NCBI RefSeq assembly: GCF_002005225.1
Contig: NZ_CP019724.1
Span: 1,550,001-1,614,000, forward strand
DNA: 64,000 bases
Source of the DNA: Streptomyces pactum
GTDB lineage: Bacteria > Actinomycetota > Actinomycetes > Streptomycetales > Streptomycetaceae
Direction: 5' to 3'
The notes under the pieces were generated by a model. The model had not been told where the DNA came from. It saw only the letters and a program-made list of their open reading frames with translations, and ran no database searches. Within the stretch, counting starts at the first letter, position 1, and every line of letters begins with the position of its first letter. A program made the translations under genes and the position numbers. Shown here piece after piece: positions 1 to 20,139 of the stretch.

Positions 1-3000
1 CACCATGTAGTGCGGCAACTGCGCGGAGAGGTGCTCCTTGAGGGCGCGGGCCAGTGACGGCGCCCTGCGGCCGAGCTGCGGATGGTTGGTCGCGGCGGGC
101 GCCCGGTAGGGCTCACGCGCCCGTACGCGGGGCAGTTCGCCGCGGCCGAGCACCAGGTCGAGGCCGTCGAGCCGGTCCTGTGACCAGGTGGCCGCCACCT
201 GGAAGCCGAGTTCCTCGGCGTGCCGGAGGACGGCTTCGAGCTCGCGGACCTCGTCCGCGGTCCGCGACCGGGGCGTCGGCGGCTCGGCCGCTCGGGCGTG
301 CGGCCGCTGCCCGAGCTCCGCGCCGAGGCGCACGGCGTCGGTGACACGGGGGTTCGTCAAGCCGCTCACCCCGAACCGGTCGGGGACCTCGCCGTCCAGC
401 AGGTCGCGCAGCTCCGCCGGGGAGGCGGCCTCCAGCCACGGCAGGGGGACGGCCGGTGCGACGTCCTTGCGCAGGATCACGTCGTAGCGGTAGGCGAGTG
501 CCCCGTCGGCGCCCTCGCCCCGCCCGACGACGAGGTCGACCGCCCCCAGCTCGGGGAGCCGCTCCGGCAGGCGGGCGAAGTACGTCGGGCTGACGAGCAG
601 TTCCCGCTCCTGGCGCCGGGCGCGTGCCACGCGGGTGGCCGGCGTGTCGGCGGTGTCCGCGGGCTCCGGACGATCCCGCTCGGCCGCGCAGAGCTCGGCG
701 GTGAACAGATCCAGGTTCCGGACGCCGCCGACGAGGACGCCGCCACCGTCTTCCAGGAGCGGCACCAGGAGCTCGAGCACCTTTTCCAGGTACTCCTCGT
801 TCGGGAAGTGCCGCACCACCGAGTTGAGCACGATCGTGTCGAACTTCTCGCCGGACAGCTCCGCCGCGGACAGTGCGTCCCCCTGGGTCAGGGTGACGTG
901 CGACCAGCCGCGGCGTGCCACCTCGCGACGTGCCGCGTCGAGCGCGGCGGCCGACGGATCCAGCGCGTGCACCGAAGCGCGGCCCGCGGCGTAGCGCAGG
1001 AGCAGCTCTCCCCCGCCGCAGCCGATCTCCAGCACCCGCTTCGGGCCCATGCGCTCCACCTGCCGGGCCACTGCCTCGGCGGCTGCCGGGTCGGCGGACG
1101 CGGTGCCGAGGGCGTACCGGTCCTCGGAGTCCTGCCGCCACTGTTCGAGGTGGGCGGCGTTCTCCTCCCGGGCGGCGGTGTGCAGCCACTGGGGGGTCGG
1201 GCTCAGGTAGGCGGCGAGGGTGCGGGCGGCACCGCTCCCCTGCGGGACGACCACGGCACGGTGCACCGAGGGGTGCTGGAGCAGCACGTTGGCGACTTCA
1301 CCGGGCTCTACGCGGAAGCCGCGCACCTTGATCTGGTCGTCGACACGGCCGAGGTAGTCGAGCGTGCCCCGCACCCGCCAGCGGACCAGGTCGCCGGTGC
1401 GGTACATGCGGGTTCCGGGGTCGAACGGATTGGCCACGAACCGCTCGGCGGTCAGGTCCGGCCGGTTCAGATAGCCGCAGGCCGTGCCGTCACCGGAGAC
1501 GTACAGCTCACCCGGCACTCCGAGCGGTACCTGTCGCAGCGCCTCGTCCAGCACGTACACCCGGGTGTTCCACACCGGGGGGCCGATGGGCACGGCCGTC
1601 GCTCCGGGCTCGGACCGGTAGCGGCAGGCGGTGAGGGGACCGCCCTCGGTGGGCCCGTACAGGTTGTGCAGTTCGGTGTCCGGCAGTACGCGTGCGAACC
1701 GTTCGGCGAGCTCGACCGGCAGCGCCTCGCCCGCGGTCTCCACGCGGCGCAGGCCGGTGCAGTGTTCCGCGGCCGGTTCCGACAGGAACTCGGCCAGCAT
1801 GGACGGGACGAAGTGGAGGTCGGTGACCCGCTCGTCGCGGATCAGCCGGGCGAGGTACTCCGGGTCCTTCTGTCCGTCGGGGCGGGCGATCACCACGGCC
1901 GCGCCGACCTGGAGCGGCCAGAACAGCTCGGGCACCGAGACGTCGAAGCCCACCGACGTCTTCAGCAGCATCCGGTCCTCGCCGCTCATGCCGTAGTGCC
2001 CCTGCTTCCACGCGGTCCAGTTCAGGCCCGCGCGGTGGGGGATCACCACGCCCTTCGGCCTGCCCGTGGAACCCGAGGTGTAGAGCACGTACGCGGCGTC
2101 GTCCCTGCCCACCCGGACCAGGGGGTTGTCGTCCCGGCGGCCGGTGGTGTCCGGCAGTTCGTCCAGCACGAGCAGCGGCTCACTGTCGGTGAGCACCTGC
2201 TCCGCGCGCTCGTCCGGGAGGTCGGTCTCCATGGGGAGGTACGCCGCTCCGGTCTTCACCACGGCGTGGACGGCGACCACCAGGTCGAACGAGCGGGGCA
2301 TCCGGATCGCGACCCGCTGCCCGGGCCCGGCGCCCCGCTCGATCAGCCAGTGCGCGAGCCGGTTGGCACGGGCGTTCAGCTCCGCGTACGTCAGGGTGCG
2401 GCCCTCGAAGACCAGCGCGGTGCGGTCCGGAGTGCGTGCGACCTGCGCCTCGAACGCGGCGGGCAGCGTCTCGTACGGCAGGGGCTTCGCGGTGTCGTTC
2501 CACTCGGCCAGGCGCCGCCGGTCGCCCGCCGGCAGGACATCGACGTCCAGGGCGGCGGTACCGGTCCCGTCGTCGGTGGCGAGGGCGTCGACCAGGCCCG
2601 CCAACGCGGTCTCGAGGCAGTCGGCCACCGCCTCGCAGGTGACCGTCTCCTCCACCTGGACGTCGAGCGACAGCTCGGTGCCGAAGTCGTCGAGCGACAC
2701 CGTCACGGGGTAGTTGATGGCGTCCACGGCCGCGCGAAAGCGCACCCCGTGGTCGTCGATGCGCGGCAGCTCCTCGTCGTGCTCCGCCTCGAAGTGACGG
2801 AAGTTGACCACCGCGGTGAACAGCGGGGCGTCGCCCTCCAGGCCGCTGCACCGCTGGACCAGGCTCAGAGGGCTCTGCTCCCGCGCGATCAGTTCCCGCA
2901 GTCCGGTGTCGACGTCCGTGAGCAGCTCACGCACGGACCGCCCGGCGAGCCGGGTGCGCAGGGGGAGCGTGTTGATGAAGTTGCCGAGCATGCGCTCCAC

Positions 3001-6000
3001 CCCGGGCACGCCCTGCAGGCGTCCGGACATCACGGCGCCGAACACCACGTCGTCGCGCCCGCTGGTGGCGGCGACGAAGCAGGCCCACGCCGCGTGGAAG
3101 AGACAGGCCGGGCTCAGTCGCAGACGCTGCGCCTGGGCGCGCAGGTCGCGTGCGAGGGGCTCGGGCAGCGCTCGGCGCAGCCGGCCGACCCGACGGCCGT
3201 TGCCGTGCACGTCGGTGAGGCCGAACGGCGCGGTGGGCTCCGTGACGTCCTCGAGGGCCGCCCGGAAGTAGGCCACCGTGTCGTCCTCGGTGTGCCTGGC
3301 CAGGGTGTGGGAGACGAAGTCGCGGTAGGGCGCCGGGGTGGACAGCAGGTCGGCGCGGCCCGCCATGTGCGCGGCCAGCTCGTGCAGGATCAGCCGCAGG
3401 GAGGTGGCGTCCTCGATGAGATGGTGGGCGGTCAGGAGCAGGTGGCGCCGCGGCGAGTGCGGCTCCTCGGCGACGACCAGGCGCAGCAGCGGCGCGCTGT
3501 CGAGGCGCATCCGTTCCTGGCGCGCGAGCAGTTCCCTCGCCTGCTCCTCGGGGTCGCGGCCGGCGGCGAGCCTGGTCCGCAGCACGGGGAGCCGCGCGGC
3601 CCGGAGCACGACCTGGACCGGTTCGGGCAGGCCCGCGGTGAGCACGGCGGTGCGCATGACGTCGTGGCGGTCGACGATGCGCTGCAGCGCGTCGATGAAC
3701 CGGGCGCACGCCTGCTCGTCGTCGGCCCGGTAGAGGGTGGAGACGAGATACGGGTCGTTGTCCGGGTCCATCAGGTGGTGGAAGAGGATGCCCTCCTGCG
3801 TGGGCAGCAGGGGGTAGACGTCCTGGATGGCGAAGGCCCCGCCGGGCACCGCGGCCACGACGGTGTCGATCTGCTCCTGTGTCAGGTCGATCAGTGGAAG
3901 CAGGTCGGGGGTGAGGCGCTCGCAGCCCTCCGGTATCCGGTTGGCCGGGACGGTGTGCGCGGGCGCGGTCCCGGCCGCGTCGACGCGCGCCGCGAGATCG
4001 GCCAGCGTGGGTGCGGTGAAGACGTCCTGGACGGTGACGTGCAGGCCGCTGTCCTTCAGCCGCGCCACCAGCACCGTGATCATCAGGGAGTGGCCGCCGA
4101 GGGCGAAGAAGTTGTCCTCGGCGCTGACCCGGTCGGCGTCGAAGCCGAGGAGTTCGGCGCAGACGTCGGCCAGGCGCCGTTCGGTGTCGGTGACGGGTGC
4201 GACGTAGTCGCGCCGGGCGAAGGCGTCGATGCCCGGGGCGGGCAGGGCACGGCGGTCCAGCTTGCCGTGCGCGGTCACCGGCAGGGCGTCGAGCTCGACG
4301 AACGCGCTCGGCACCATGTACTCGGGCAGGGCACCCTCGAGGTGCCGGATCAGGTCGGCGCGGTGGTCGGCGAGGGGGTGTCCGGGTTCGGGCACCACGT
4401 AGGCGACCAAACGGGGGCTGCCGGGCTGGTCCTCACGGACCAGGACGGCCGAGGAGCGGACGGCGGGGTGTTCCGTGAGCCGGTGCTCGATCTCGCCCGG
4501 CTCGATGCGGAAGCCGCGCACCTTGACCTGGTCGTCGGCGCGGCCGAGGAACTCCAGTTCGCCGCCGGGCAGTCGGCGCACCAGGTCGCCGGTGCGGTAC
4601 ATGCGGGCGTCGGGGGAGGCGTCGAACGGGTTGGGCACGAACCGCTCCCGGGTCAGCCCGGGCTGGTGCAGGTAGCCGCGGGCCAGTCCCGTGCCGGCGA
4701 TGTACAGCTCGCCGACGCAGCCGACGCCCTGCGGTGCGAGAGCATCGTCGAGCACGTGCAGTTGGATGTTCTGGATCGGCCGGCCGATGGGCACGACGCG
4801 GGGGGTGCCCTCGGCGGGGACGGTCCAGTGGCTGACGTCGACGGCCGCCTCGGTGGGCCCGTACAGGTTGTGCAGCGGGGCGGTGTGCCGCTCGTAGTGG
4901 CGGGCGCACAGGTCCGCGGGCAGCGCCTCGCCGCTGCAGAAGACCTGCCGTACGGTCGTGCACCGCGCCCAGCCCGGCTCCTCGACGATGCTGCGCAGCA
5001 TCGACGGCACGAAGTGCAGGGTGGTCACGCCGAACGCGCGGACGGCGGAGAGCAGGTAGGCGGGGTCGCGGTGACCGCCGGGCGCGGCGATCGCGAGCCG
5101 GGCGCCGCACAGCAGCGGCCAGAAGAACTCCCAGACGGACACGTCGAAGCTGTAGGGGGTCTTCTGGAGGACGACGTCGTCACCGGTGAGCCGGTACTCG
5201 TTCTGCATCCACTCGATGCGGTTGACCGCCGCCCGGTGCTCGATCATCACGCCCTTGGGGCGGCCCGTGGAACCGGAGGTGTGGATCACGTAGGCCAAGT
5301 GGCCCGCGCGCACCTCCGGTTCGGCCGTGGGGGCGTCCGCGTCGCGCGCGTCGAGGACGTCCGCGCCCGCCCGGTCGCGCAGGGTGCCGTCGGGGTGCAG
5401 GACGAGCAGGTGCTCGACGCCGTGCAGCGGTTCGGCGTCCAGGTGCGGCTGGGTGAGGACGACGGTGACACCGGTCTGGTCCACGAGGCCGGTGCGGCGG
5501 GCCGCCGGGTAGGACGGCTCGACCGGCATGTAGGCGCCCCCGGCCTTCAGGGTGCCCAGGATGCCCGCGACCATCTCGGCGGAACGCTCGGCGTGCAGAC
5601 CGACCAGCGTGTCCGGTCCGACGCCGAGGTGGCGCAGTCCGCGGGCGATCCGGCCGGCCCAGGCGTCGAGTTCGGCGTACGTCCACGAGCGGTCGGTGGT
5701 GACCAGGGCGGTGCGCCCGGGGTGCCGGGCCACCCGCTCCTCGAAGAGTTCGTGCAGGCACCGGTCGTCGCTGAAGGGGCGCCCGGTGTCGTTGAACTCC
5801 TCGACCACCTGGCGACGCTCCTCGGCGTCGATCATGGCGAGCCGGGACACGGGCAGCGCCGGATCGTCGGCGACGGCGGCGAGCAGCCGGGTGTAGTGGC
5901 CGATGAAGCGCCGGATGGTCGCGCGGTCGTACAGGTCGGGGTTGTACTCGACGGTGCCGACCAGTCCGTCGGGGGTCTCCCGCAGGTCGAGCGTCAGGTC

Positions 6001-7284
6001 GAACTTGGTGAAGCTGAGGTCGACGTCGACCGGGGAGACCTCGAGGCCGCCGAGGGTGGCGTCCCGTCGGGTCTGTGCCTCCTGGAGGACGAACATCGTC
6101 TGGAAGACGGGCGAGTGGGCGAGGCTGCGCTCGGTGTCCAGGGACTCCACGACCGCCTCGAAGGGGACTTCCTGATGCTCGTAGGCCTCCAGGGCGGTCT
6201 GCTTCACCTGGGCCAGCAGGTCGCGGAAGTCCGGGTCGCCCGCGAGGTCCGCGCGCATCACCAGGGTGTTGGCGAAGAAGCCGACGAGGTCCTCGAGCTC
6301 GCGTCGCCCGCGGCCTGCGACGACCGTGCCGACGGCGATGTCCGTCTGGCGGGTGTAGCGGTTGAGGACGACGGTGTAGGCGGCCAGCAGGGTCATGTAG
6401 AGCGTGGCCTCGTGGACCTTGGCGACGTCGCGCAGGGCGCTCAGCAGTTCCGCCGGGCAGGTGAAGTTCTCGCCTGCCCCCGTGTAGGTCTTCAGCCGCG
6501 GGCGCTCCCGGTCGACGGGCAGCGTCAGCCGCGGGTCGATCCCGGCCAGTTGGCGCTTCCAGTAGTCCGTCTGCCGGTCGTGCAGGTCACCGGCGAGCCG
6601 CTCACGCTGCCAGTGCGCGTAGTCCGCGTACTGCACGGCCAGCGGCTCCAGCGGGTCGGGGCGGCCCGCGCGGAACGCCTCGTACAGAGCGACCAGGTCG
6701 CGGAAGAACACGCCGACCGACCAGCCGTCGGACACGCTGTGGTGCGTGGTGACGAGCAGGTGGTGTTCCTGCTCCGACTGCCGCAGCAGCCGTACCCGGA
6801 TCAGGGGTCCGCGCTCCAGGTCGAACGGGGCGGCGGCCTCCTCGCGGCAGATCGCGGTGAGCCGCGCCGGGTCGGTCAGCTCCTCCTCGGCGACCGTGAA
6901 GTCGCCGCCGTCGCCGATGACCTGGCGCGGTACGCCGCCGACGTCGGTGAAGCGGGTGCGCAGCACCTCGTGCCGCTGGACGACGGCCGCCAGGGCGCGC
7001 AGCAGCGCCGGACGGTCGAGGCGGCCTCGCAGCCGCATCGCCATCGGGATGTTGTAGGCGGCGCTGGTGCCGTCCAGTTGGGCGAGGAACCACAGCCGCT
7101 GCTGGGTGAAGGACAGCGGCACGGGTGTGCCGTCGGTCCGGGGCAGCCGGGGAATGGTCTCGAGCGCGGAGAGGTCGACGCCCTGCTTGCGCAGCAGCGC
7201 GATCAGGGCGCGCTGCCGCTTCTTCGGCAGGGAACGGATCCTGCGGATGAGATCAAGGCCGGTGTCCTGCGTGGTGGTGCCCAT
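1..7284 (-). CDS. Non-ribosomal peptide synthetase, C-A(Ser)-PCP-C-A(MT), 3' end outside window
   Basis: Peptide synthetase of at least 2428 residues; it runs off the left edge. Visible order: C domain (HHSVSDG at 181-187), A domain (TSGSTGRPKG near 675), PCP (GGHSLM, Ser1066), second C domain (HHLIEDA near 1286, with Ala for the usual Gly), second A domain (FDVSVPEL near 1781), then a methyltransferase with SAM motif LEIGCGGGE near 2083 inserted before the A9/A10 end. The window stops just after LPHYMV of A2. Read against GrsA, the A1 pocket is D-V-W-H-F-S-L-V-D-K, the same as I recall for EntF, so serine is predicted. The A2 pocket D-V-P-H-E-A-L-P-L matches nothing I recognise. The methyltransferase position suggests N-methylation of the second residue. 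The ATG is preceded by AGGCAGGGGGA and lies 15 bp after the PKS stop, so the two are probably co-translated. No thioesterase is visible. Confidence 0.93.
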   Translation of the reverse strand, partial: MGTTTQDTGLDLIRRIRSLPKKRQRALIALLRKQGVDLSALETIPRLPRTDGTPVPLSFTQQRLWFLAQLDGTSAAYNIPMAMRLRGRLDRPALLRALAAVVQRHEVLRTRFTDVGGVPRQVIGDGGDFTVAEEELTDPARLTAICREEAAAPFDLERGPLIRVRLLRQSEQEHHLLVTTHHSVSDGWSVGVFFRDLVALYEAFRAGRPDPLEPLAVQYADYAHWQRERLAGDLHDRQTDYWKRQLAGIDPRLTLPVDRERPRLKTYTGAGENFTCPAELLSALRDVAKVHEATLYMTLLAAYTVVLNRYTRQTDIAVGTVVAGRGRRELEDLVGFFANTLVMRADLAGDPDFRDLLAQVKQTALEAYEHQEVPFEAVVESLDTERSLAHSPVFQTMFVLQEAQTRRDATLGGLEVSPVDVDLSFTKFDLTLDLRETPDGLVGTVEYNPDLYDRATIRRFIGHYTRLLAAVADDPALPVSRLAMIDAEERRQVVEEFNDTGRPFSDDRCLHELFEERVARHPGRTALVTTDRSWTYAELDAWAGRIARGLRHLGVGPDTLVGLHAERSAEMVAGILGTLKAGGAYMPVEPSYPAARRTGLVDQTGVTVVLTQPHLDAEPLHGVEHLLVLHPDGTLRDRAGADVLDARDADAPTAEPEVRAGHLAYVIHTSGSTGRPKGVMIEHRAAVNRIEWMQNEYRLTGDDVVLQKTPYSFDVSVWEFFWPLLCGARLAIAAPGGHRDPAYLLSAVRAFGVTTLHFVPSMLRSIVEEPGWARCTTVRQVFCSGEALPADLCARHYERHTAPLHNLYGPTEAAVDVSHWTVPAEGTPRVVPIGRPIQNIQLHVLDDALAPQGVGCVGELYIAGTGLARGYLHQPGLTRERFVPNPFDASPDARMYRTGDLVRRLPGGELEFLGRADDQVKVRGFRIEPGEIEHRLTEHPAVRSSAVLVREDQPGSPRLVAYVVPEPGHPLADHRADLIRHLEGALPEYMVPSAFVELDALPVTAHGKLDRRALPAPGIDAFARRDYVAPVTDTERRLADVCAELLGFDADRVSAEDNFFALGGHSLMITVLVARLKDSGLHVTVQDVFTAPTLADLAARVDAAGTAPAHTVPANRIPEGCERLTPDLLPLIDLTQEQIDTVVAAVPGGAFAIQDVYPLLPTQEGILFHHLMDPDNDPYLVSTLYRADDEQACARFIDALQRIVDRHDVMRTAVLTAGLPEPVQVVLRAARLPVLRTRLAAGRDPEEQARELLARQERMRLDSAPLLRLVVAEEPHSPRRHLLLTAHHLIEDATSLRLILHELAAHMAGRADLLSTPAPYRDFVSHTLARHTEDDTVAYFRAALEDVTEPTAPFGLTDVHGNGRRVGRLRRALPEPLARDLRAQAQRLRLSPACLFHAAWACFVAATSGRDDVVFGAVMSGRLQGVPGVERMLGNFINTLPLRTRLAGRSVRELLTDVDTGLRELIAREQSPLSLVQRCSGLEGDAPLFTAVVNFRHFEAEHDEELPRIDDHGVRFRAAVDAINYPVTVSLDDFGTELSLDVQVEETVTCEAVADCLETALAGLVDALATDDGTGTAALDVDVLPAGDRRRLAEWNDTAKPLPYETLPAAFEAQVARTPDRTALVFEGRTLTYAELNARANRLAHWLIERGAGPGQRVAIRMPRSFDLVVAVHAVVKTGAAYLPMETDLPDERAEQVLTDSEPLLVLDELPDTTGRRDDNPLVRVGRDDAAYVLYTSGSTGRPKGVVIPHRAGLNWTAWKQGHYGMSGEDRMLLKTSVGFDVSVPELFWPLQVGAAVVIARPDGQKDPEYLARLIRDERVTDLHFVPSMLAEFLSEPAAEHCTGLRRVETAGEALPVELAERFARVLPDTELHNLYGPTEGGPLTACRYRSEPGATAVPIGPPVWNTRVYVLDEALRQVPLGVPGELYVSGDGTACGYLNRPDLTAERFVANPFDPGTRMYRTGDLVRWRVRGTLDYLGRVDDQIKVRGFRVEPGEVANVLLQHPSVHRAVVVPQGSGAARTLAAYLSPTPQWLHTAAREENAAHLEQWRQDSEDRYALGTASADPAAAEAVARQVERMGPKRVLEIGCGGGELLLRYAAGRASVHALDPSAAALDAARREVARRGWSHVTLTQGDALSAAELSGEKFDTIVLNSVVRHFPNEEYLEKVLELLVPLLEDGGGVLVGGVRNLDLFTAELCAAERDRPEPADTADTPATRVARARRQERELLVSPTYFARLPERLPELGAVDLVVGRGEGADGALAYRYDVILRKDVAPAVPLPWLEAASPAELRDLLDGEVPDRFGVSGLTNPRVTDAVRLGAELGQRPHARAAEPPTPRSRTADEVRELEAVLRHAEELGFQVAATWSQDRLDGLDLVLGRGELPRVRAREPYRAPAATNHPQLGRRAPSLARALKEHLSAQLPHYMV

Positions 7285-7299: not shown

Positions 7300-10200
7300 T
7301 CAGCTCTCGGTGTCCAGCGCGTCCAGCTCCTCGTCGCTCATGTGCTCGACGAGGGCCATGCTTTCGAGGATCAGATCCAGCTCGGGTCTGCTCGTGTCCC
7401 CGGCCACGAGGAGCCGTTGGCGCAGTTCCCCGGCCATGTCGGACAGGCGCGGGGCGGCGAAGACCGCCTCGACCGGCAGCTCGACGCCCGCCCGTTCCTT
7501 GAGCAGGTTGATCAGCCGGGTGGCCAGCAGCGAGTTGCCGCCGAGCGAGAAGAAGTCGGTCCGTGCGGTCAGCGTGGCCGCGTCGACCTGGAGGACGTCG
7601 GCCCAGGCCTGCCCCATGACCTGCTCGGCGTCGGTGGCGGCGTCGGCGGGCGGCACGGGTTCCGGTGCCCTCGTGTGCGGTACGGCCGCCTGCGCGTCGC
7701 GGCCGACCCAGTAGCTGCCCGCCTCGAACGCGGTGGCCGGCAGCGGCGCCATCCGGCGCCGCCCGGTGTGCAGCGCGCTCCAGGGCACCCGGACCCCGCG
7801 CACCCAGAGGGCGGCCAGTTCCTCCAGGGCCCGGTCCTCGGCGAGCCCGGCGAGGAAGGCCCGGCTCCGGGCGCCGGACAGGACGGAGGTCCAGGGTCCG
7901 GCGTCGTCGTCGGCGTTGCCCCGGTACACGGGTGCCGCCGTGGGGGTGCCCGCCAGGTGGTCGGCGAGCGCCCGGGCCAGTTCGGCTCGGTCGGCGGCGA
8001 CCACGGCGAGGCGCTCGGCCAGCGGCTCGCGGCCCAGTTGCGTGGTGTACGCGATGTCCGCGAGGCTCACGTGGGAGCCGGTGCCGTCCTCGCCGGGCAG
8101 GTCCGCCAGGTGGTCGAGCAGGCGCCGTACCGCCGTGCGCAGGCGTTCCTCGGTCCGGGCGGAGACCACGACGACCTGCGGCGCGGTGTCCGGGGTGGCG
8201 GGCCCGGCCTCGGCCGCGGCCGGCGGTGCCTCCACGACCATGCTGACGTGCGAGCCGCCCGCGGCGACACAGTTGATGAGGGCGCGGCGGGGCCGGGAGG
8301 GGCCGCCGGTGTCCGTACCGCCGCGCGGCTCCCAGTCGGTCAGCCGGTCGCACAGCTCGAGCGGCGAACCGTCCAGGTCCAGGCGCGGGTTGGCGGTGCC
8401 GGCTGCCACGAGCGGAGCTATCCGGCCGTGCTGGAGCTGCAGGACGACCTTGGTGAGCTGGGCGATGCCGGAGGCCGCCTCGGGGTGCCCGAGGTTCGAC
8501 TTCACGGCGCCGACCGGCACCGGCGTGGTGACGCCGGTGAACACCTCACGCAGGGCGCGCAGTTCGACCTCGTCGGAGAAGGCGGTGCCGTTGGCGGCGG
8601 ACTCGACGTAGCCGATGGAGCCGGGTTCGGCGCCGGCCCGCTCCAGCGCCCGGCGCATGGCCGCGACCTGGGTGCGGTGGCTGGGCGTCATGAAGCCGTT
8701 GGAGCGGCCTCCGTGCAGCGAGGACGTGCTCTTGAGGACCGCGAGGACGGTGTCGCCGTCGCGCAGCGCCGCGTCCAGCGGCTTGAGCAGGACCGCGCCG
8801 ACCGCCTCGGCGGGCAGGTAGCCGTCGCCGTCGCGGAAGCTGCGGCTGCCCGGGTGGGTGCCGAGCAGTTGCATCTCCGAGAGCGCCACGTACTTGTCCT
8901 CGTGGACGGTCAGGTTGACCCCGCCCGCGACGGCCAGCTCGCACTCGCCGCGCAGCAGGTCGGCGCAGGCGAGGTGGACGGCCATCGCCGAGGAGGTGCA
9001 CATGCTGTCCACGGCGAGGCTCGGGCCTTCGAGGCCGAAGAAGTGCGAGACGCGGTTGGCTATCAGGTTGTACGAGGCGGACGAGGTGAGCGCGGCGAGC
9101 ACCGGTTCGGAGGTGTCCGCCCGGTACATCTGGTAGGCGGCGCCGACGTACACGCCGACACGCCGGCCGTAGCGGCGCTCGATCACCTCCTGGGTGACGC
9201 CGCCCTGTTCGAGCAGGTGCCAGACGGTCTCCAGGAACAGCCGCTGCTGCGGGTCCATCGCGGCCGCCTCGCGGGGCGAGATGCCGAAGTGCAGCGGGTC
9301 GAACCGGTCGATGCCGTCGAGGAAGGCGCCGTACCGGGCGCCGCCCTCGGTCTTCCAGCGGTCGCCGGGGACCTCGGTGACGCAATCCCGGCCCTCGCGC
9401 AGCACGGCCCAGAACTCCTCCAGGTCGTCGGCGTGCGGGTAGCGCCCGCCGATACCGATGACGGCGATGTCCCGGTCCGTCGGAGCCTGGGCCGGGGCAT
9501 GGGCCAAAGCGGGAACGGGAGCGGGGGCGGTGGAGTCCGTCCTGGCCGTTACGGGTGCGGCGGTCCGCGCCCGAGGGGCCTCGGGTGCCGCCTCGCCGAC
9601 GAGTGCGCGCAGCGCCTGCCCGTGCTCGTCGGCGAGGTACCGGGCCAGACCGCGCACCGTCCGCACCTCGAAGAGCAGCGTGCGCGACAGCGGCCCGAAG
9701 GTGTCCTCCAGCGGCTGGACCATGGTCACGGCGAGCACGGAGTCCATGCCGTACCGCTCCAGCGGTGTGTCGGGGTCGAGGCGCTCGGGCCCGAGCTTGA
9801 GGGCCGCGGCCAGCACGCGCCTGAGGTGCGCCACGGCACGGTCCTCGACGGACGGCGCGGATCCGCCGCCGGCCACCGGGGCGGGCGCGGGGGCCTGCGG
9901 TGCCGCATCCGTCGTGGTCCGCGCCGCGGGGTTCTGCGGTACGGCGGTCTCCGCTGCGGCGTTCTGCGGTACGGCGGTCTGCGCCGCGGCGTTCTGCGGT
10001 ACGGCAGTCTCCGCTGCGGCGTTCTGCGGTACGGCAGTCTCCGCTGCGGCGGTCTGCGGTACGGCGGTCTGCGGTGCCGACTCCCCGGCGCGCTCGGTCA
10101 GCCGGCTCAGCAGCGCCTCGCGGTCGCCCGCCACCACCAGCAGCCTGCCGTCCGTGACGCCGCCCTCGGCGCCGGCCAGGGCCTGACGCAGGGCGGCGAG

Positions 10201-13200
10201 GCCACGCCGCGTGTCGAGGGGGGCGAGGCCCAGTGCGCGCAACTGCTCGCGGACGGGGCCCTCGGTGCCCATGCCGCCCTCGTCCCACAGCGGCCAGTTG
10301 ACGGACACGGTACGGCCGCTGCGCAGGCCCGCGCCGACGAGCCGGTCGCGGTGGGCGGCGTAGGCGTCCATGAAGGCGTTGGCGGCGGCGTAGTCGCTCT
10401 GCCCCGGGTTGCCGAAGGCGCCGGCGAGAGACGAGAAGCAGACGAACAGCTCCAGCGGCTGCTCCTGGGTCAGCTCGTCCAGGTGGACGAGTCCGGCGAC
10501 CTTGGGGGCGAGGACCCGGTCGAGTTCCTCGGCGCTCTTGCGGACGACGAAGTTGTCGTGGACGACGCCGGCGGCGTGCAGCACGCCGGTCAGCGCGCCG
10601 TGTTCGTCGGTGATGCGGGCCAGTAGGGCGGCAAGGGCGTCCCGGTCGGTGACGTCGACGGCCTCGTACCTGACGGTCAGGCCGGTGGTGCGCAGGGCGT
10701 CCAGAGCGGCGCGCCGCTCCTCGGTCAGTGGCGAGCGCCCGGTGAGGACCACGGTGGCGCGGCCGACGGCGGCCGCGATGTCGCGGGCCGTGATCAGACC
10801 GAGTCCGCCGATGCCGCCGGTGATGAGGTAGACACCGCCCTCCCGCCAGGGCGCGGCGGCGGCCCGGGCCCCGGTGACCTCGGTGAAGCGGCGGATCAGG
10901 CGCCGGCCGTCGTGGTGGCGCACCTCCGGCTCGGGGTCGGTGGTGGCCTCGCTGGTGAGGCGGGCGGCGACGGTGGCGGGTGAGGCGCCGTCCAGGCACT
11001 CCAGGTACTGGGTGCGCAGCTTGGGGTTCTCCAGGTGGGCCGTGCGCAGCAGCGCGCCCAGGCCGCTGAACCAGACCGGCCGGTCGCCGTCGCCGACGGC
11101 CGCCACCTGGAGCAGCGTGGGCCGGCGCACGCCCCGCTCCAGCAGCCGCCGGGTCAGCGTGAACACCTGCCGCACGGCATCGGCGTACTGCCGGTCCGGC
11201 GATGCGTCCGCCGGTGCGAGGAAGGTGCACTCGGTCCCGGCGGGCAGGGCGGCCCGCAGGGTGTCGCGTGCGTCGGCGGTGAGCCGGCCGAGCACCACGA
11301 CGTGCCGTTGTGCGGAAACGCCCGCCGCCCCGGCCGTGGCCTGCCGCTCGGCCCATTCGGGTCGCAGGAGCACGACGTCAGGGATGTCGCCCTCGGCGGC
11401 CGGGGAGCCGGCGGCCGGTGCGGGTCGGTGGGGTGCGCCTTCGGTGTCGAGGTCGAACCAGCAGCGTTCGCGGGCGAAGGGGTAACCCGGAAGGCTGATG
11501 CGGCGCACGGCGCTGCCGGCCGGCCAGGCGTCCTCCCAGCGCACCTCGGCGCCGTCGGCCCATCCCGCGAGCAGCTCCTCGGGGGCCCCGTGCCGGGTCC
11601 AGGCGTCCAGGGCGGCGCGTTCCGCCGGGGCGTCGGCGGGCCGGCCGGGGCGGACGGTACCCCGGTACCAGGGGCCCCTCGCGGCGGGGTCGGTGGCGAA
11701 GGCGGCGAGCCGTTCGCGGGCCTCGGCGAGAGAGGTCACGGCGAGGGCGAGACGCTCCTCCAGAGCCATGCGTCCGGTCTGCAGGGTCCACGTTGCGGCC
11801 CAGAGGTCGGCGTCGGTCAGCCGGCCGAGCCGGGCGTGCAGACGACGGGCCTGCTCGACTAGCTGGGCCTCGCTCTTGGCGGAGAGCACCAGCAGCGCCG
11901 GGCGGCCGTCGGCCGACGCGACCGCGGGGCGGGCGGGTGGCTGGTACTCGGCGATGACGAGATGGGCGTTGGAGCCGCCGCCGCCGAAGCTGGAGACCCC
12001 GGCGACGCGGGGCAGGGTACGGCCCTGAGGCGCGGGCCGGTGCCAGGGCTCCAGGGTCCGCTGGACGCGCAGCGGGGTGCGGTCGAAGTCGATGTGCGGG
12101 TTGAGGGTCGCGGAGTGCAGGCTCGGCACGAGTTCGCCGTGGCGGAGCTGGAGCAGCACCTTGGTGAGCGCGGCGATGCCGGCGGCGGACTCCAGGTGTC
12201 CGATGTTGGACTTCACGGAGCCGACGGCGAGCTGCTCCGGTGCGCCGCCCGCGCGGCGGAAGGCCTGTTCCAGGCCGCTGACCTCGATCGGGTCGCCGAG
12301 GGACGTACCGGTGCCGTGCGCTTCGAGGTAGCTCAGGGAGCGTGCCTCGACACCGGCGGCGGCGAGCGCGTCCGCGATGACCTCGCCCTGCGCCACCGGG
12401 GTCGGCACCGAGTAGCCCGAGGTGCGCCCGCCGTGGTTCACGGCCGTTCCCTTGATGACCCCGTGGATCTGGTCGCCGTCGGCGACGGCCCGCTCCAGTG
12501 GCTTGAGGAGGACGGCGCCGACGCCCTCGCCGGGTACGTAACCGTCGCCGCCCTCGCCGAAGCTGCGGCACCGGCCGTCACTGGAGAGGAACTTGCGCTG
12601 CCCGAGCACCAGGTGCTTGTTGGGATGCGGGGTGAGGTTGACACCGCCCGCGAGCGCGGTGTCGCACTGACCGCTGCGGATGGCCTCACAGGCCAGATGG
12701 ATGGCGGTGAGACTGGACGAGCACATGGTGTCCACGGCCAGGCTCGGTCCGTGGAAGTCGTAGAAGTACGACACCCGGTTGGCGACCGTGGAAGCGCTGC
12801 CCCACAGGGCCGCGGGCTCCCCGCGCTCCTGCGCCTGGGCCCCCAGGAGCTGGTACTCCTGGTACATCACACCGACGAACACACCGACCTTCGCGCCGCG
12901 CGAGAGCCGGTCGGCGGTGTATCCGGCATCCTCCAGGGTGTGGTGAGCGCACTGCAGGAACAGCCGCTCCTGCGGGTCGAGGTAGTCGGCCTCCAGCAGC
13001 GAGATCTGGAAGAACAGCGGGTCGAACCGGTCGATGTCGTCCAGGAAGCCACCCCAGCCGCCGGCCCCCGCCTCCGCGTACCGCCCCCGGTTCCAGCGAT
13101 CGGCCGGTACCTCCCGGACACAGTCCCGGCCCACGCGCAAGTTCTGCCAGAACTCATCCAGGTCGGCCGCCTCCGGATACCGGCCGCTGACACCGACGAT

Positions 13201-16200
13201 CGCGATGTCACCGGGACGCACGGACCCCGGCCCGGCGGGTGCCCCGGCGGTCCCGGCGGTCCCGGCGGTCGGGACGGTCGGGACGGTCTCGAGCTCCGGG
13301 ACGGGCTCGACAGCGGGCAGCGGACGGCTGGAGAGCCCGGTCAGCTCCGCGCACACACGGCCCCGTTCGTCCAGGACGGTGACGTCCAGCCGGGCGGAGG
13401 CCCGGTCGGTGCCGCCGCCGGGCCGGTGGCGGATCCAGGCGTACGCCCGGGCGGGCGAGGCGGCGAGGGCCTCGGCGCGGGTGAGGGCGAACGGCAGCGC
13501 GAGCGCCGCCGAGCCGCCGTCGCCCAGCCACAGGCCGATGGTGCTCTGGAGGGCGCCGTCGAGGATGCTCGGGTGCAGCAGGCCGCCGGGCAGCGCTTCG
13601 GCCGCCTCCGGCAGGCGCAGCTCGGCGAGGACCTGGCGCCGGCCCTCCGCGTCCCCGCCGGTGCGCAGCTCGGTCAGGGACCGCTGCGAGGGGCCGTACG
13701 CCAGGCCGAGGCCGTCGTAGACGCCGTAGACGTGCTCACCTGTGTACGTCGCCCCGGTGCATGCGGCCCGCAGTTCGGCGAGGGGCAGGGTGCGCCCGGT
13801 GGCATCCTCGGCCAGGGCCGCCCGGCCCTGGCCGCACAGGGTGGTGCCACCGTCGGCTCCGACGGTGAGGATCTCGTACGTGCAGACCTTGCCGCCGGTG
13901 CGCACGCGCACCCGCAGCGTCAGTCCGTCGGGGCCGTACACGGCGGCCCGGAGCCACACCACGTCGGTCAGCCGGACGGCGGCGGTGTCCTCCCGGCCCA
14001 GCGCCCGGGCGACCGCCACGCGCGCCATCTCCAGATGCGCTACGCCCGGCAGCACCCGGCCGCCGCGGATCCGGTGGTCGCGCAGATACGGTTCCGAGCC
14101 GTCGAAGCGGGTCTCGTACGTCGCCTCGTCCGCCGGGCCGCCGGGCACGGTCCGCTGGAGCAGCGGGTGGCTCCGCGGGGCGGTGGTACTCGGCGAGTCC
14201 GCCTGGGCGGCGGGCGCGTTCCGGACGCCGTGGGCGCCGACGAGGTGGGTCGCCATGGCCTGCAGCGTGCGGTGCTCGCCGAAGACGCCCGCAACCAGCG
14301 CCGTCCCGTACCGCTCGTTCACCCGCTCGGCGAGCCGCGCGCGCCCGCCCAGGTCCAGCCCGAACTCGCCGAGCTCCGCGTCGGGGTGCACATCGTCGGG
14401 GTGCACCCCGACCAGGGCCGCCACCTCTTCGGTGAGGGCGGTGCGTACGCCGGCGAGGGAGTCGGGGGTGCCGGGGGCGGTCGGAGCGGGGGCCGTTTCG
14501 GCCGGAGCCTCGGCGGCGGGACTCTGCGCGGGGAAGGACGGTGCGGCGGGAGCGGGCACGGCAGGCGCCACGGAAGCAGGCACGGCGGGAGGGTGCACGG
14601 CCGGCGCTGCCGCCACCGCACCGGCACCGGCACCGGCACCGGCACCGGCACCGGCAGGCACCTGAGGCTCCAACCACGCCGCGAGCTCCGCGATCGTCCG
14701 GTGCTCGAACATCACCGTCGGCGACAACTCCACCGACAGCCGCCCCTCCAACTCCCCCACCAACGCCAACAGATCAGCCGACCCCAACCCCAACTCGTAA
14801 TAACCCACACCCACATCCACCACATCCACCGCCACACCCAGCCGAGCACCCACCAACTCCCGCAACACGGCGGAAACGGACAGCGACTCCACCACCGGCA
14901 CCGCGACAGGGCCGGAAACGGGCACCGCCGACGCGTCGGGAGCGGGCACGGCGGGAGCGGGCGCGACGGGAGCGGGCACGGCGGGAGCGGGAGCGGGAGC
15001 GGGAGCGAGCACGGCGGGAGCAGGCGCGGCGGGAGCGGGCGCGTGCGCGGCCGACGCTGCCGCCACCGCACCGGCTCCAGAACCGGCACCGCCACCGGCA
15101 CCGGCACCGGCAGGCACCTGAGGCTCCAACCACGCCGCGAGCTCCGCGATCGTCCGATGCTCGAACATCACCGTCGGCGACAACTCCACCGACAGCCGCC
15201 CCTCCAACTTCCCCACCAACGCCAACAGATCAGCCGACCCCAACCCCAACTCGTAATAACCCACGCCCACATCCACCGCATCCACCGCCACACCCAGCCG
15301 AGCACCCACCAACTCCCGCAACACGGCGGAAACGGACAGCGACTCCACCACCGGCACCGCGACAGGGCCGGAGACGGGCACCGCCGACGCGACGGGAGCG
15401 TCACCACGGACGTCGAGCGCGCCGGCGGCCCGGATGCGCTTGGCGACGAACTGCCCGACCTCGGCGACCTTCCGACCGGCCTCGTCGTAGAACTCCACGA
15501 CCAGACGGATGAGTTCGTCGTCGCGGCGGACGGAGTCGGCGGGCACCCGGACGTAGCAGCGCCCGCCGAGCGGCCCGGCCGCGCGGAACCGGTCGAACAT
15601 CAGCGGGAGGTAGAGGCCGGGGCCGTCGTTGTCCCCGTGCAGCATGCCCAGGGCGACACCGCCGCCGAGGAGCCCGGCTTCGAAGAGGGCGGGGTGGAAG
15701 AGGAACGCACCGGTGGAGGCCTGGTGTTCGGGAGCGAGTTCCAGCTCGGCGATCCAGTCGCCGGGGCGGTGGTGGACCGCGCCGCCGAGCTTCATCAGGC
15801 CCGAGTGGAAGAGGTCGTACTCCCGGCACCAGGTGTAGATCTCGTCCATGGTGGTGCGCCGGGTCGCCTCCTGGACGGGCAGCGGGAGCCGCTCCGTGTA
15901 GGTGACGGGACCGCGGTGGTGCGCGGTGACGACGGCGTGCAGCACGTCGGTGGTGTCCTGACCGCGACGGCTGCGCACCTCCATGCGCCATCCCCCGCCG
16001 GCGGCGGGGCGCCCCTCGACGGTGGTCAGGACGGCCTCACCGGGCCCGGCGACGAGCGGCGCGAGGATGGTGAGGTTGCGCAACTCCACCTCGGGCATGG
16101 GGTGTCCGTGCCGGGCCAGCACCTGGAGCACCAGGTCCACGTAGCCGACACCGGGCAGCAGGCTGCGGCCGTACACGACGTGCCCGCGCAACAGGGGGTT

Positions 16201-16248
16201 GTCGGCGGTGACGGTGAAGGTCTCGGCGAACGCGGGAGATGTGGTCAT
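7300..16248 (-). CDS. Trans-AT type I polyketide synthase, DH*-ACP-ACP-ACP0-DH-KS-KR-ACP-KS0-PCP
   Basis: A 2982-residue modular PKS with no acyltransferase domain; malonyl units must come from a separate AT not in this window. Order: N-terminal double-hotdog DH (H23 in HVVYGRSLLPG, but HPALFEAG has Glu where Asp is usual); ACP1 (Ser338); ACP2 (Ser490); a third ACP near 590-667 whose motif reads FGLDLGG with no serine; DH near 690-980 (HRIRGGRVLPG, HPSILDGALQS); KS1 near 1013-1435 with Cys1176, HGTGT and NIGH intact; KR (TGGIGGLG near 1810, SDYAAAN near 1951); ACP (Ser2170); KS2 near 2257-2680; PCP-like carrier (LGGNSLL, Ser2906). KS2 keeps Cys2417 and the last His but has SAANGT in place of AHGTGT, so the middle His is Ala2551 and it is probably a non-elongating KS0. 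The ATG overlaps the TGA of the PPTase gene. The product is unknown. Confidence 0.93.
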   Translation of the reverse strand: MTTSPAFAETFTVTADNPLLRGHVVYGRSLLPGVGYVDLVLQVLARHGHPMPEVELRNLTILAPLVAGPGEAVLTTVEGRPAAGGGWRMEVRSRRGQDTTDVLHAVVTAHHRGPVTYTERLPLPVQEATRRTTMDEIYTWCREYDLFHSGLMKLGGAVHHRPGDWIAELELAPEHQASTGAFLFHPALFEAGLLGGGVALGMLHGDNDGPGLYLPLMFDRFRAAGPLGGRCYVRVPADSVRRDDELIRLVVEFYDEAGRKVAEVGQFVAKRIRAAGALDVRGDAPVASAVPVSGPVAVPVVESLSVSAVLRELVGARLGVAVDAVDVGVGYYELGLGSADLLALVGKLEGRLSVELSPTVMFEHRTIAELAAWLEPQVPAGAGAGGGAGSGAGAVAAASAAHAPAPAAPAPAVLAPAPAPAPAVPAPVAPAPAVPAPDASAVPVSGPVAVPVVESLSVSAVLRELVGARLGVAVDVVDVGVGYYELGLGSADLLALVGELEGRLSVELSPTVMFEHRTIAELAAWLEPQVPAGAGAGAGAGAGAVAAAPAVHPPAVPASVAPAVPAPAAPSFPAQSPAAEAPAETAPAPTAPGTPDSLAGVRTALTEEVAALVGVHPDDVHPDAELGEFGLDLGGRARLAERVNERYGTALVAGVFGEHRTLQAMATHLVGAHGVRNAPAAQADSPSTTAPRSHPLLQRTVPGGPADEATYETRFDGSEPYLRDHRIRGGRVLPGVAHLEMARVAVARALGREDTAAVRLTDVVWLRAAVYGPDGLTLRVRVRTGGKVCTYEILTVGADGGTTLCGQGRAALAEDATGRTLPLAELRAACTGATYTGEHVYGVYDGLGLAYGPSQRSLTELRTGGDAEGRRQVLAELRLPEAAEALPGGLLHPSILDGALQSTIGLWLGDGGSAALALPFALTRAEALAASPARAYAWIRHRPGGGTDRASARLDVTVLDERGRVCAELTGLSSRPLPAVEPVPELETVPTVPTAGTAGTAGAPAGPGSVRPGDIAIVGVSGRYPEAADLDEFWQNLRVGRDCVREVPADRWNRGRYAEAGAGGWGGFLDDIDRFDPLFFQISLLEADYLDPQERLFLQCAHHTLEDAGYTADRLSRGAKVGVFVGVMYQEYQLLGAQAQERGEPAALWGSASTVANRVSYFYDFHGPSLAVDTMCSSSLTAIHLACEAIRSGQCDTALAGGVNLTPHPNKHLVLGQRKFLSSDGRCRSFGEGGDGYVPGEGVGAVLLKPLERAVADGDQIHGVIKGTAVNHGGRTSGYSVPTPVAQGEVIADALAAAGVEARSLSYLEAHGTGTSLGDPIEVSGLEQAFRRAGGAPEQLAVGSVKSNIGHLESAAGIAALTKVLLQLRHGELVPSLHSATLNPHIDFDRTPLRVQRTLEPWHRPAPQGRTLPRVAGVSSFGGGGSNAHLVIAEYQPPARPAVASADGRPALLVLSAKSEAQLVEQARRLHARLGRLTDADLWAATWTLQTGRMALEERLALAVTSLAEARERLAAFATDPAARGPWYRGTVRPGRPADAPAERAALDAWTRHGAPEELLAGWADGAEVRWEDAWPAGSAVRRISLPGYPFARERCWFDLDTEGAPHRPAPAAGSPAAEGDIPDVVLLRPEWAERQATAGAAGVSAQRHVVVLGRLTADARDTLRAALPAGTECTFLAPADASPDRQYADAVRQVFTLTRRLLERGVRRPTLLQVAAVGDGDRPVWFSGLGALLRTAHLENPKLRTQYLECLDGASPATVAARLTSEATTDPEPEVRHHDGRRLIRRFTEVTGARAAAAPWREGGVYLITGGIGGLGLITARDIAAAVGRATVVLTGRSPLTEERRAALDALRTTGLTVRYEAVDVTDRDALAALLARITDEHGALTGVLHAAGVVHDNFVVRKSAEELDRVLAPKVAGLVHLDELTQEQPLELFVCFSSLAGAFGNPGQSDYAAANAFMDAYAAHRDRLVGAGLRSGRTVSVNWPLWDEGGMGTEGPVREQLRALGLAPLDTRRGLAALRQALAGAEGGVTDGRLLVVAGDREALLSRLTERAGESAPQTAVPQTAAAETAVPQNAAAETAVPQNAAAQTAVPQNAAAETAVPQNPAARTTTDAAPQAPAPAPVAGGGSAPSVEDRAVAHLRRVLAAALKLGPERLDPDTPLERYGMDSVLAVTMVQPLEDTFGPLSRTLLFEVRTVRGLARYLADEHGQALRALVGEAAPEAPRARTAAPVTARTDSTAPAPVPALAHAPAQAPTDRDIAVIGIGGRYPHADDLEEFWAVLREGRDCVTEVPGDRWKTEGGARYGAFLDGIDRFDPLHFGISPREAAAMDPQQRLFLETVWHLLEQGGVTQEVIERRYGRRVGVYVGAAYQMYRADTSEPVLAALTSSASYNLIANRVSHFFGLEGPSLAVDSMCTSSAMAVHLACADLLRGECELAVAGGVNLTVHEDKYVALSEMQLLGTHPGSRSFRDGDGYLPAEAVGAVLLKPLDAALRDGDTVLAVLKSTSSLHGGRSNGFMTPSHRTQVAAMRRALERAGAEPGSIGYVESAANGTAFSDEVELRALREVFTGVTTPVPVGAVKSNLGHPEAASGIAQLTKVVLQLQHGRIAPLVAAGTANPRLDLDGSPLELCDRLTDWEPRGGTDTGGPSRPRRALINCVAAGGSHVSMVVEAPPAAAEAGPATPDTAPQVVVVSARTEERLRTAVRRLLDHLADLPGEDGTGSHVSLADIAYTTQLGREPLAERLAVVAADRAELARALADHLAGTPTAAPVYRGNADDDAGPWTSVLSGARSRAFLAGLAEDRALEELAALWVRGVRVPWSALHTGRRRMAPLPATAFEAGSYWVGRDAQAAVPHTRAPEPVPPADAATDAEQVMGQAWADVLQVDAATLTARTDFFSLGGNSLLATRLINLLKERAGVELPVEAVFAAPRLSDMAGELRQRLLVAGDTSRPELDLILESMALVEHMSDEELDALDTES
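9931..10080. repeat. 30-bp tandem repeat in PKS linker (5 units)
   Basis: Five consecutive 30-bp units start at 9931, 9961, 9991, 10021 and 10051, the last one diverged. On the minus strand they encode a decapeptide of the type ETAVPQNAAA in the linker between the KR and the fourth ACP. The unit is a multiple of three, so changes in copy number would keep the frame and only alter linker length. Confidence 0.9.
14655..14935. repeat. Duplicated ACP block, copy A (ACP2)
   Basis: This 281-bp block matches 15111-15391 with five mismatches that I count, at a fixed offset of 456 bp. It encodes the ACP with Ser490. Its codon use differs from the rest of the PKS: on the coding strand it is rich in TTG, GGT, GGG, GAT and GCT instead of C-ending codons. 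Confidence 0.93.
15111..15391. repeat. Duplicated ACP block, copy B (ACP1)
   Basis: Partner of 14655-14935; encodes the ACP with Ser338. The two proteins differ at only two places I can see (Ala/Val before the conserved DVGVGYY and Lys/Glu in the following helix). Between the copies lies an Ala/Pro-rich linker, and hexanucleotide CACCGG runs border both. Confidence 0.93.
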
Positions 16249-16973
16249 CGGATTTCCGTCCCAGAAAGGGCGCACGAAGGTGCCCGAGTGTGCGTGGCGC
16301 GAACCGGGGTCTCGGCTACGGACAGGGGGAGAGCGATGGCTGTCAGGATGAACCCGTCGCGGTGCATCCAGCGCCCCGTGAGCCGGGGGACCGGATTCCC
16401 GGCCGCCTGGGGCGGGGGCACCAGGAACCGCGCGGAGAAGAAGCCACCGGAGTCGATGTCGATCCGGGCCCCGTCGAATCCCAGCATCCGCTGGGTGAGG
16501 GGGAACCAGACCTTGAAGACCGCCTCCTTGCAACTGAAGAGCAGACGGTCCCATGGCACCGCGTCGCTTCGCGCGCCCAGCCGTTCCACGAGGTCTCGTT
16601 CGGCCGGCAGGGCGATCAGGTCCAGCAGGTCTCCGGGAAGCGGGGCGCTTTCCTCGGCGTCGATGCCCACGGAGTGCAGTCGGCTGGCCCGCGCCACCGC
16701 GGCGGCGCGGTATCCGGCGCAGTGCGTCATGCTGCCGACCACTCCGGCGGGCCACCGCGGCGCACGCTGCCTCCCGGGCGGCAGCGGAACCGGCGGTATT
16801 CCCAGTTCACCGAGCGCGGTACGAGCGCACCGTCGCACCGTCGCGAATTCCCGCCGACGCCGTGGTACGGCGTCGGCGACGGCCGCGCGTTCCTCGGCGA
16901 AGAGACGAATGTCCGCGTCGTCGTCGAATGCCTCGGCGGACATCACGTCGACGGGAAGTATCTCCTCGATCAC
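16245..16973 (-). CDS. Sfp/EntD-type 4'-phosphopantetheinyl transferase
   Basis: A 242-residue PPTase that moves phosphopantetheine from CoA to the serine of ACP and PCP domains, so it probably activates the carriers of the adjacent PKS and NRPS. Family motifs are present: SVGIDAEE for the Mg-binding acidic pair, and the helix motif FSCKEAVFKVW. RRCARTALGELG and VGSMTHCAGY fit the EntD-like group, and the length is normal. Its TGA overlaps the ATG of the PKS gene (ATGA), so it is the first clear gene of a PPTase-PKS-NRPS operon. The ATG is at 16973. I am sure of the family; dedication to this cluster is inferred from position. Confidence 0.93.
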   Translation of the reverse strand: MIEEILPVDVMSAEAFDDDADIRLFAEERAAVADAVPRRRREFATVRRCARTALGELGIPPVPLPPGRQRAPRWPAGVVGSMTHCAGYRAAAVARASRLHSVGIDAEESAPLPGDLLDLIALPAERDLVERLGARSDAVPWDRLLFSCKEAVFKVWFPLTQRMLGFDGARIDIDSGGFFSARFLVPPPQAAGNPVPRLTGRWMHRDGFILTAIALPLSVAETPVRATHTRAPSCALSGTEIR

Positions 16974-20041: not shown

Positions 20042-20139
20042 CCCGGGCGGCCCGCCCTGACCCGTACGGGCCCCGCGAACGGGTGCGCTCCCGCGCCCGC
20101 CCCTAGGTTCGGAAGCCGAGGGTGATCAAGGGAGCGCAC

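Follow-up and report, generated by a model that had tools for sequence, protein, structure and literature searches.

The question raised by this locus is whether a polyketide synthase (PKS) with three altered domains, a DH, an ACP and a KS, is an odd machine of its own or a member of a described family that shares the alterations. The gene lies in the window, a stretch of 64,000 nucleotides (G000:C1:1550001-1614000) from the Streptomyces pactum genome, which has 8.55 Mb in one contig.

Gene, domain order and type of cluster

The open reading frame is on the (-) strand, starts with ATG at 16248, ends with a stop at 7300-7302 and is intact. It encodes a PKS of 2982 aa. A GTG at 16755 was rejected as the start, as the upstream stretch is a phosphopantetheinyl transferase gene in a different frame. 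The Pfam listing contains two KS, two DH, one KR and five carrier domains and no acyltransferase (AT) domain, in agreement with the AT-less protein of the preliminary description. The three substitutions claimed there are also present in the translation. The first DH has HPALFEAG at 185, with Glu190 for Asp; the third ACP has FGLDLGG at 629, with Leu633 at the Ser site; and the second KS has SAANGT at 2550, with Ala2551 for His, and retains Cys2417. KS1 is intact (CSSS, EAHGTGT), and DH2 is canonical (HPSILDG). The domain order is DH1-ACP1-ACP2-ACP3(no Ser)-DH2-KS1-KR-ACP4-KS2(Cys kept, His to Ala)-PCP, and the features are as follows.

16245..16973, (-): 4'-phosphopantetheinyl transferase gene; its stop codon and the start codon of the PKS gene overlap
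7300..16248, (-): PtxH-type trans-AT PKS, 2982 aa plus stop (ORF, Pfam, gene order against ptx)
15463..16248, (-): DH1, probable second half of a split type A dehydrating bimodule, with Glu190 (15679-15681) for the usual Asp (motif, Pfam, homologue alignment)
15094..15348, (-): ACP1, LGLGS, Ser present (motif, homologue alignment)
14638..14892, (-): ACP2, near-copy of ACP1, missing from some orthologues (alignment)
14209..14463, (-): ACP3, Leu633 (14350-14352) at the Ser site (alignment, profile score, predicted fold)
13306..14169, (-): DH2, canonical His and Asp (Pfam, alignment, structure search)
11938..13212, (-): KS1, elongating type, Cys-His-His (motifs, KS tree)
10279..10836, (-): KR (Pfam)
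9634..9846, (-): ACP4, YGMDS (motif, alignment)
8224..9477, (-): KS2, a KS0 with Cys2417 (8998-9000) and Ala2551 (8596-8598) for the first His (motifs, alignment, trees)
7429..7611, (-): PCP, LGGNSL, putative acceptor of the chain from KS0 (motif, Pfam)
7303..7356, (-): acidic C-terminal tail, DEELDAL, which may dock to the NRPS as a short linear motif (by eye)
1..7284, continuing left to G000:C1:1546749, (-): NRPS, 3511 aa, C-A-PCP-C-A(MT)-PCP-C-P450

The NRPS gene is followed leftward, on the same strand, by genes encoding an SDR protein, a SIS-type protein, a PKS of 4988 aa, a formyltransferase-A-PCP protein and an OzmP/PtxD-type protein with the motif SGGKDS. Further left are a KS-ACP protein of 884 aa, a hybrid of 6197 aa with an internal NRPS module, an AT-AT-oxidoreductase protein and a methyltransferase. 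A large molybdopterin oxidoreductase gene beside the cluster (window 20122-23832, (+)) is probably outside it.

The order AT, hybrid, KS-ACP, OzmP-type, formyltransferase-A-PCP, PKS, NRPS, PKS is that of ptxA-H in S. avermitilis KA-320, whose products have the similar sizes of 1065, 5939, 877, 362, 1154, 4885, 3542 and 2860 aa (PMC5764310, Table 1). According to the ptx text, KS9 and KS11 have changed active-site motifs and are KS0s, KS11 forming the terminal KS0-ACP, module 11; module 9 contains an ACP without Ser (ACP9a); modules 8 and 9 form a split type A dehydrating bimodule, where a DH-ACP start completes KS-KR-ACP-KS0; and the NRPS has MT and P450 domains (PMC5764310). The same architecture is seen here, including the PtxH-type trait of one Ser-less ACP beside an active ACP in the bimodule. 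By gene order, sizes and domains as published, and not by the PtxH sequence, the 2982-aa protein is a PtxH-type subunit in a phthoxazolin/inthomycin-type (oxazolomycin-related) cluster. The assembly line, unrecognised in the preliminary description, thus has a known counterpart. That description was to be refuted by a near-identical characterised cluster: the ptx cluster is one in architecture, but not as regards near identity of sequence, PtxH having been compared by its description.

Several differences from ptx were observed. The protein here has 2982 aa and PtxH 2860 aa. The Ser-less ACP is the first of module 9 in the ptx text, whereas in the rows examined it is the last; here it is the third, and two Ser-bearing ACP copies precede it, unlike in that description. 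The SDR and SIS-domain genes (G000:C1:1544584-1546549) between the NRPS and PKS3 have no entry in the ptx table (PMC5764310). The database protein P0102 is as long as PtxH (2860 aa), though its name gives Streptomyces sp. MCL20-2 as the source.

The oxazolomycin (ozm) and lajollamycin (laj) systems are similar as trans-AT PKS-NRPS lines, with counterparts of OzmH, OzmN, OzmJ/K and OzmL listed (PMC10831120). However, the J and K counterparts of laj are separate (Laj8, 2559 aa; Laj9, 1187 aa), whereas here one protein precedes the NRPS (PMC10831120). An inthomycin cluster was described in strain SYP-A7193 and compared with phthoxazolin (PMC13136089, PMC8621525).

A scan of one-per-species genomes yielded 30 loci. 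In a protein search, 49 of the best 120 of 2500 matches belong to the family by length and build. The KS2-PCP part was found at E <= 1e-180 in 8 of 295 genomes of the same genus, own genome included. S. coeruleorubidus has two PtxH-type genes (L014, L016) located head to head, with the KS2s about 11 kb and the open frames about 1.3 kb apart. The second copy is without KS1 in the alignment, and its PCP has Ala for Ser (LGGNALL) and is followed by another Ser-bearing carrier. Two KS2-like matches were also observed in L015 (1-1221, (-)), G067, G088 and G138; in L015 and G067 they are close and in opposite orientation.

The substitutions in DH1, ACP3 and KS2 recur in homologues, and hence they are neither isolated changes nor errors. 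The preliminary description presented the protein as an odd combination of domains; in the rows examined these oddities are family traits. This is a new member of a described family and not a new machine, and the altered parts are shared traits.

The probable split bimodule, DH1 and ACP3

The upstream OzmH/PtxB-type PKS (G000:C1:1503520-1522113) ends with KR-ACP-KS0 and a conserved C-terminal tail. The active site of this KS0 is Cys-Asn-His in all 16 rows (own and 15 orthologous loci); in L050 and L051, which have no match to the E-x-N pattern, the Asn was read by alignment. All 15 orthologous loci have this tail, LFWDTYR or a variant, which ends the protein or lies close to its C-terminus, with a few more residues after it in L053 and L056; it was recognised by pattern in 14 loci and by eye in L055. 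L057 was excluded from this count; it comes from locus L025, which is a different cluster type. The RhiE-like and CurL-like Pfam linker models have one match each at the end of the upstream protein, after the KS preceding KS0, and a scan of the C-terminal stretch yielded no such match after KS0 itself. KAsynt_C_assoc has two matches in this stretch. At described KS/DH junctions, disordered C-terminal docking regions of about 70 residues follow KSs that have no flanking subdomain (PMC9113145).

Since the upstream protein ends in this way, and docking at KS/DH junctions has been described, DH1-ACP is best read from sequence as the second half of a split dehydrating bimodule begun by that protein. 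The type A layout, KS-KR-ACP-KS0 and then DH-ACP, is found here across the subunit break. The N-terminal DH, formerly called odd, would thus complete a bimodule whose first half is the PKS ending in KS0. A similar bimodule occurs in HtmA1 of the hangtaimycin system, as KS-KR-ACP-KS0(Cys-Asn-His) and then DH-ACP, but within one protein, whereas the bimodule here is split over two subunits (PMC8456789). The Cys-Asn-His KS3 of HtmA1 was shown to be a transacylase: it transfers and does not extend, and C155A stopped transfer (PMC8456789). Hangtaimycin itself was rejected as the identity of the cluster, being the product of a different assembly line (PMC8456789). P0029 from S. spectabilis was rejected as HtmA1; its KSs have no Asn at the His site.

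The Glu of DH1 is conserved. It was observed in 39 of 39 database DH1s, these being the proteins that include DH1 among the 49 of the family (from the best 120 of 2500 matches), and in all 10 rows covering the site among 17 (16 orthologous loci and the query). One apparent DH1 with Asp was taken as P0081, the only family protein with a DH2 starting within the first 60 residues. Among the remaining DHs in the listed proteins, 118 in all, Asp occurs in 97, Glu in 2, Asn in 2 and Gln in 1, with 16 unread. The DH2 rows of the family, 47 of which were read, have Asp in 45 and His in 2. One possibility is that the change from Asp to Glu inactivates DH1 and that DH2, beyond the ACP array, dehydrates instead. 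The rarity of Glu in other DHs and the Asp of DH2 are consistent with this, as is the loss of the His of the HP motif in two DH1 rows, P0092 and P0107 (QPALFEA). On the other hand, the first His of DH1 (HVV, HVI or HLV) is retained in the 39 rows shown, dN/dS of DH1 is below that of DH2 in 7 of 8 orthologues covering DH1 (the value for L012, with 26% identity, was excluded as a mis-hit, as this locus has no DH1), and the Glu carboxylate could serve the same role. We regard an inactive DH1 as rather unlikely.

The absence of Ser from ACP3 is equally regular. None of 49 rows (48 family proteins and the query) has Ser at this site; instead there are Leu (21), Val (13), Trp (11), Ile (2), Gly (1) and Pro (1). 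In a set of 13 chosen proteins ACP3 was found in 12, none with Ser, and L016 gave no match. The rows of the Ser-bearing ACPs contain Ser in 46 of 49 cases; the exceptions are a gap and two rows whose motifs (FGLDVTG, FGFDWAG) are those of ACP3. One or two Ser-bearing ACPs precede ACP3 in full-length family rows. In the window protein there are two, identical in 236 of 240 bases over the compared stretch (window 14638-15348), which suggests recent duplication or gene conversion.

ACP3 is still recognisable as a carrier. Alone, it scores 36.1 bits against a Pfam cut-off of 20.8, and its predicted structure is an ACP-like helical bundle (helices 2-20, 33-36, 40-54, 60-65 and 69-79; block pLDDT 75-88). 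Of the nine domains compared, ACP3 has the top dN/dS value in 6 of 10 comparisons (0.36-0.81). Such values fit a structural role without catalysis, but would also fit partial relaxation. PMC10921412 also discusses an inactive ACP, but this is an S941A mutant, and the passage was set aside as a parallel.

KS2 and the junction with the NRPS

KS2 is of the KS0 class, judging by its sequence: Cys is kept and the catalytic His is lost. Cys and Ala (for His) are both found in 17 of 17 rows (16 orthologous loci from 15 genomes and the query). The second His is retained (KSNLGH at 2583), and the PCP motif LGGNSL is at 2902.

A tree was constructed from 104 KSs, 10 from the cluster and 94 from 26 of the 120 listed proteins. 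KS2 belongs to a clade of 24 rows (SH-aLRT 95), none of which has the His. Members of this clade are named as Streptomyces, Sorangium, Brevibacillus, Methylobacter, Rathayibacter, a clostridial MAG and others, and represent several phyla. When 34 catalytic-site columns were masked and four long rows removed, KS2 falls in a 20-row clade where all rows have Ala (90), and in a 14-row clade (98). Two Ala rows, P0043_k5 and P0051_k4, are outside the KS2 clade in the masked tree; grouping of all 22 is not rejected (AU p 0.088). The preliminary description had proposed a KS phylogeny as a check, and KS2 indeed groups with His-less and not with elongating KSs, the references being His-less homologues whose non-elongating nature is deduced from the missing His.

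KS1 belongs to a clade of 24 intact KSs. Counted from the tree, 21 His-less rows come from proteins that also have an upstream KS; in 19 of them that KS is in the clade of KS1, and KR and ACP lie between the two KSs in 18 of the 20 database proteins among the 21 (the exceptions, P0043 and P0045, are the same in both counts). This pattern suggests that KS-KR-ACP-KS0 is a shared cassette of old origin. KS2 and the upstream KS0, which forms a long branch, do not group together, so the two KS0s need not behave alike.

The dN/dS values against 10 orthologues are 0.10-0.33 for KS2 and 0.10-0.26 for KS1, which indicates purifying selection on both, although the values are crude because GC-rich third positions limit silent changes.

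The best PDB sequence match to KS2 is the K3DAK4 bimodule core of Brevibacillus brevis BGC11 (7zma/7zsk), whose KS keeps EAHGTGT, and the first His is intact in all three alignments shown with the nearest solved structures. Thus whole-domain similarity alone does not mark a KS0, and 7zma was dropped as support. The K3DAK4 structure is also among the top structural matches to DH2. It is very improbable that KS2 still elongates with another residue in place of the first His. KSNLGH still provides the second His and the Lys, and the closest PDB entries have the first His, but Ala is invariant in the orthologue rows, the 24-row clade contains no His, and HtmA1 KS3, with one His changed, transferred without extending (PMC8456789).

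The next gene, encoding the NRPS, starts with a C domain. In P0091 a KS0, a carrier motif and the C-domain motif HHxxxDG are in a single protein, and the condensation family PF00668 was also found in P0072, P0099, P0112 and P0115. Profile and pattern searches detected a carrier downstream of KS0 in some of the His-less proteins, but not in all. The NRPS N-terminus was found in 12 of 15 loci. By eye, this N-terminus and the DEELDAL-like tail of the PKS resemble a docking pair of the type formed by a short linear motif and a beta-hairpin, as described in PMC9113145. The His-less clade, the retained Cys, the purifying selection, the PCP-type carrier and the C domain of the next gene support the preliminary suggestion that KS0-PCP is a likely transfer-only handover point to the NRPS.

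Proposed pathway and the modules after glycine

The best explanation, which we consider quite probable, is a PtxH-type subunit with entry through a split bimodule, one extension and transfer-only handover to the NRPS by KS2. The upstream KS-KR-ACP would make a beta-hydroxyacyl chain, and the terminal KS0 would hand it on, from one subunit to the next, to the ACPs in the window protein. On these ACPs DH1 would dehydrate the chain in the manner of a type A dehydrating bimodule, and a Z olefin is expected. ACP3, having no Ser, could not carry the chain and would be at most a structural or spacer element. KS1 would then add one malonyl unit, and KR would reduce the product to beta-hydroxyacyl-ACP4. 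The chain would be loaded on Cys2417 of KS2; as KS2 would not extend it, it would only move it to the PCP. The AT-AT-oxidoreductase protein, whose gene lies at the left of the cluster, would supply the extender units. Finally, the C domain of the NRPS would condense the PCP-bound chain with the first amino acid, for which the reading is Ser. The adenylation readings for the A domains before the last one, which we take to be Gly, Gly and Ser, were made by eye from the sequences. For ptx, A6, A12 and A13 were read as Gly, Ser and Tyr (PMC5764310).

According to the ptx authors, who offer no explanation for the modules that come after it, the glycine module is where phthoxazolin is released (PMC5764310). 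As phthoxazolin A needs only the modules up to the glycine module, the window protein could belong to a decaying or relic half of the assembly line, making nothing and losing its activities. The high dN/dS of ACP3 and the loss of the PCP Ser in one S. coeruleorubidus paralogue agree with decay. However, dN/dS of KS1 and KS2 does not exceed 0.33 against any of the 10 orthologues, the substitutions are common to 39 to 49 rows, no stop interrupts the reading frame and conservation extends to the docking ends. We regard a relic as improbable: since KS1 and KS2 of the post-glycine modules are under purifying selection, these modules probably make something.

A tentative possibility, to which we give somewhat less than an even chance, is that the post-glycine half (the terminal modules of the hybrid, the window protein and the NRPS) builds the second half of a larger hybrid compound. 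This half would be cut off, perhaps by the fused P450, leaving the phthoxazolin/inthomycin carboxamide. The Ser-less ACP would then be a fixed structural element, and the Glu-containing DH a fixed catalytic variant, in dozens of actinobacterial proteins. P450-assisted release of inthomycin is reportedly the subject of a separate paper. The idea of a larger, cleaved compound is that of the ptx authors (PMC5764310); what is added here is the evidence from fixed traits and selection.

The analysis removes a false lead, as the three apparent defects are traits of a described family. It also sharpens the question posed by ptx, which becomes that of the product of the post-glycine modules. ACP3, which still scores as a carrier and for which a preserved fold is predicted, could reveal the part played by an inactive carrier in a dehydrating bimodule.
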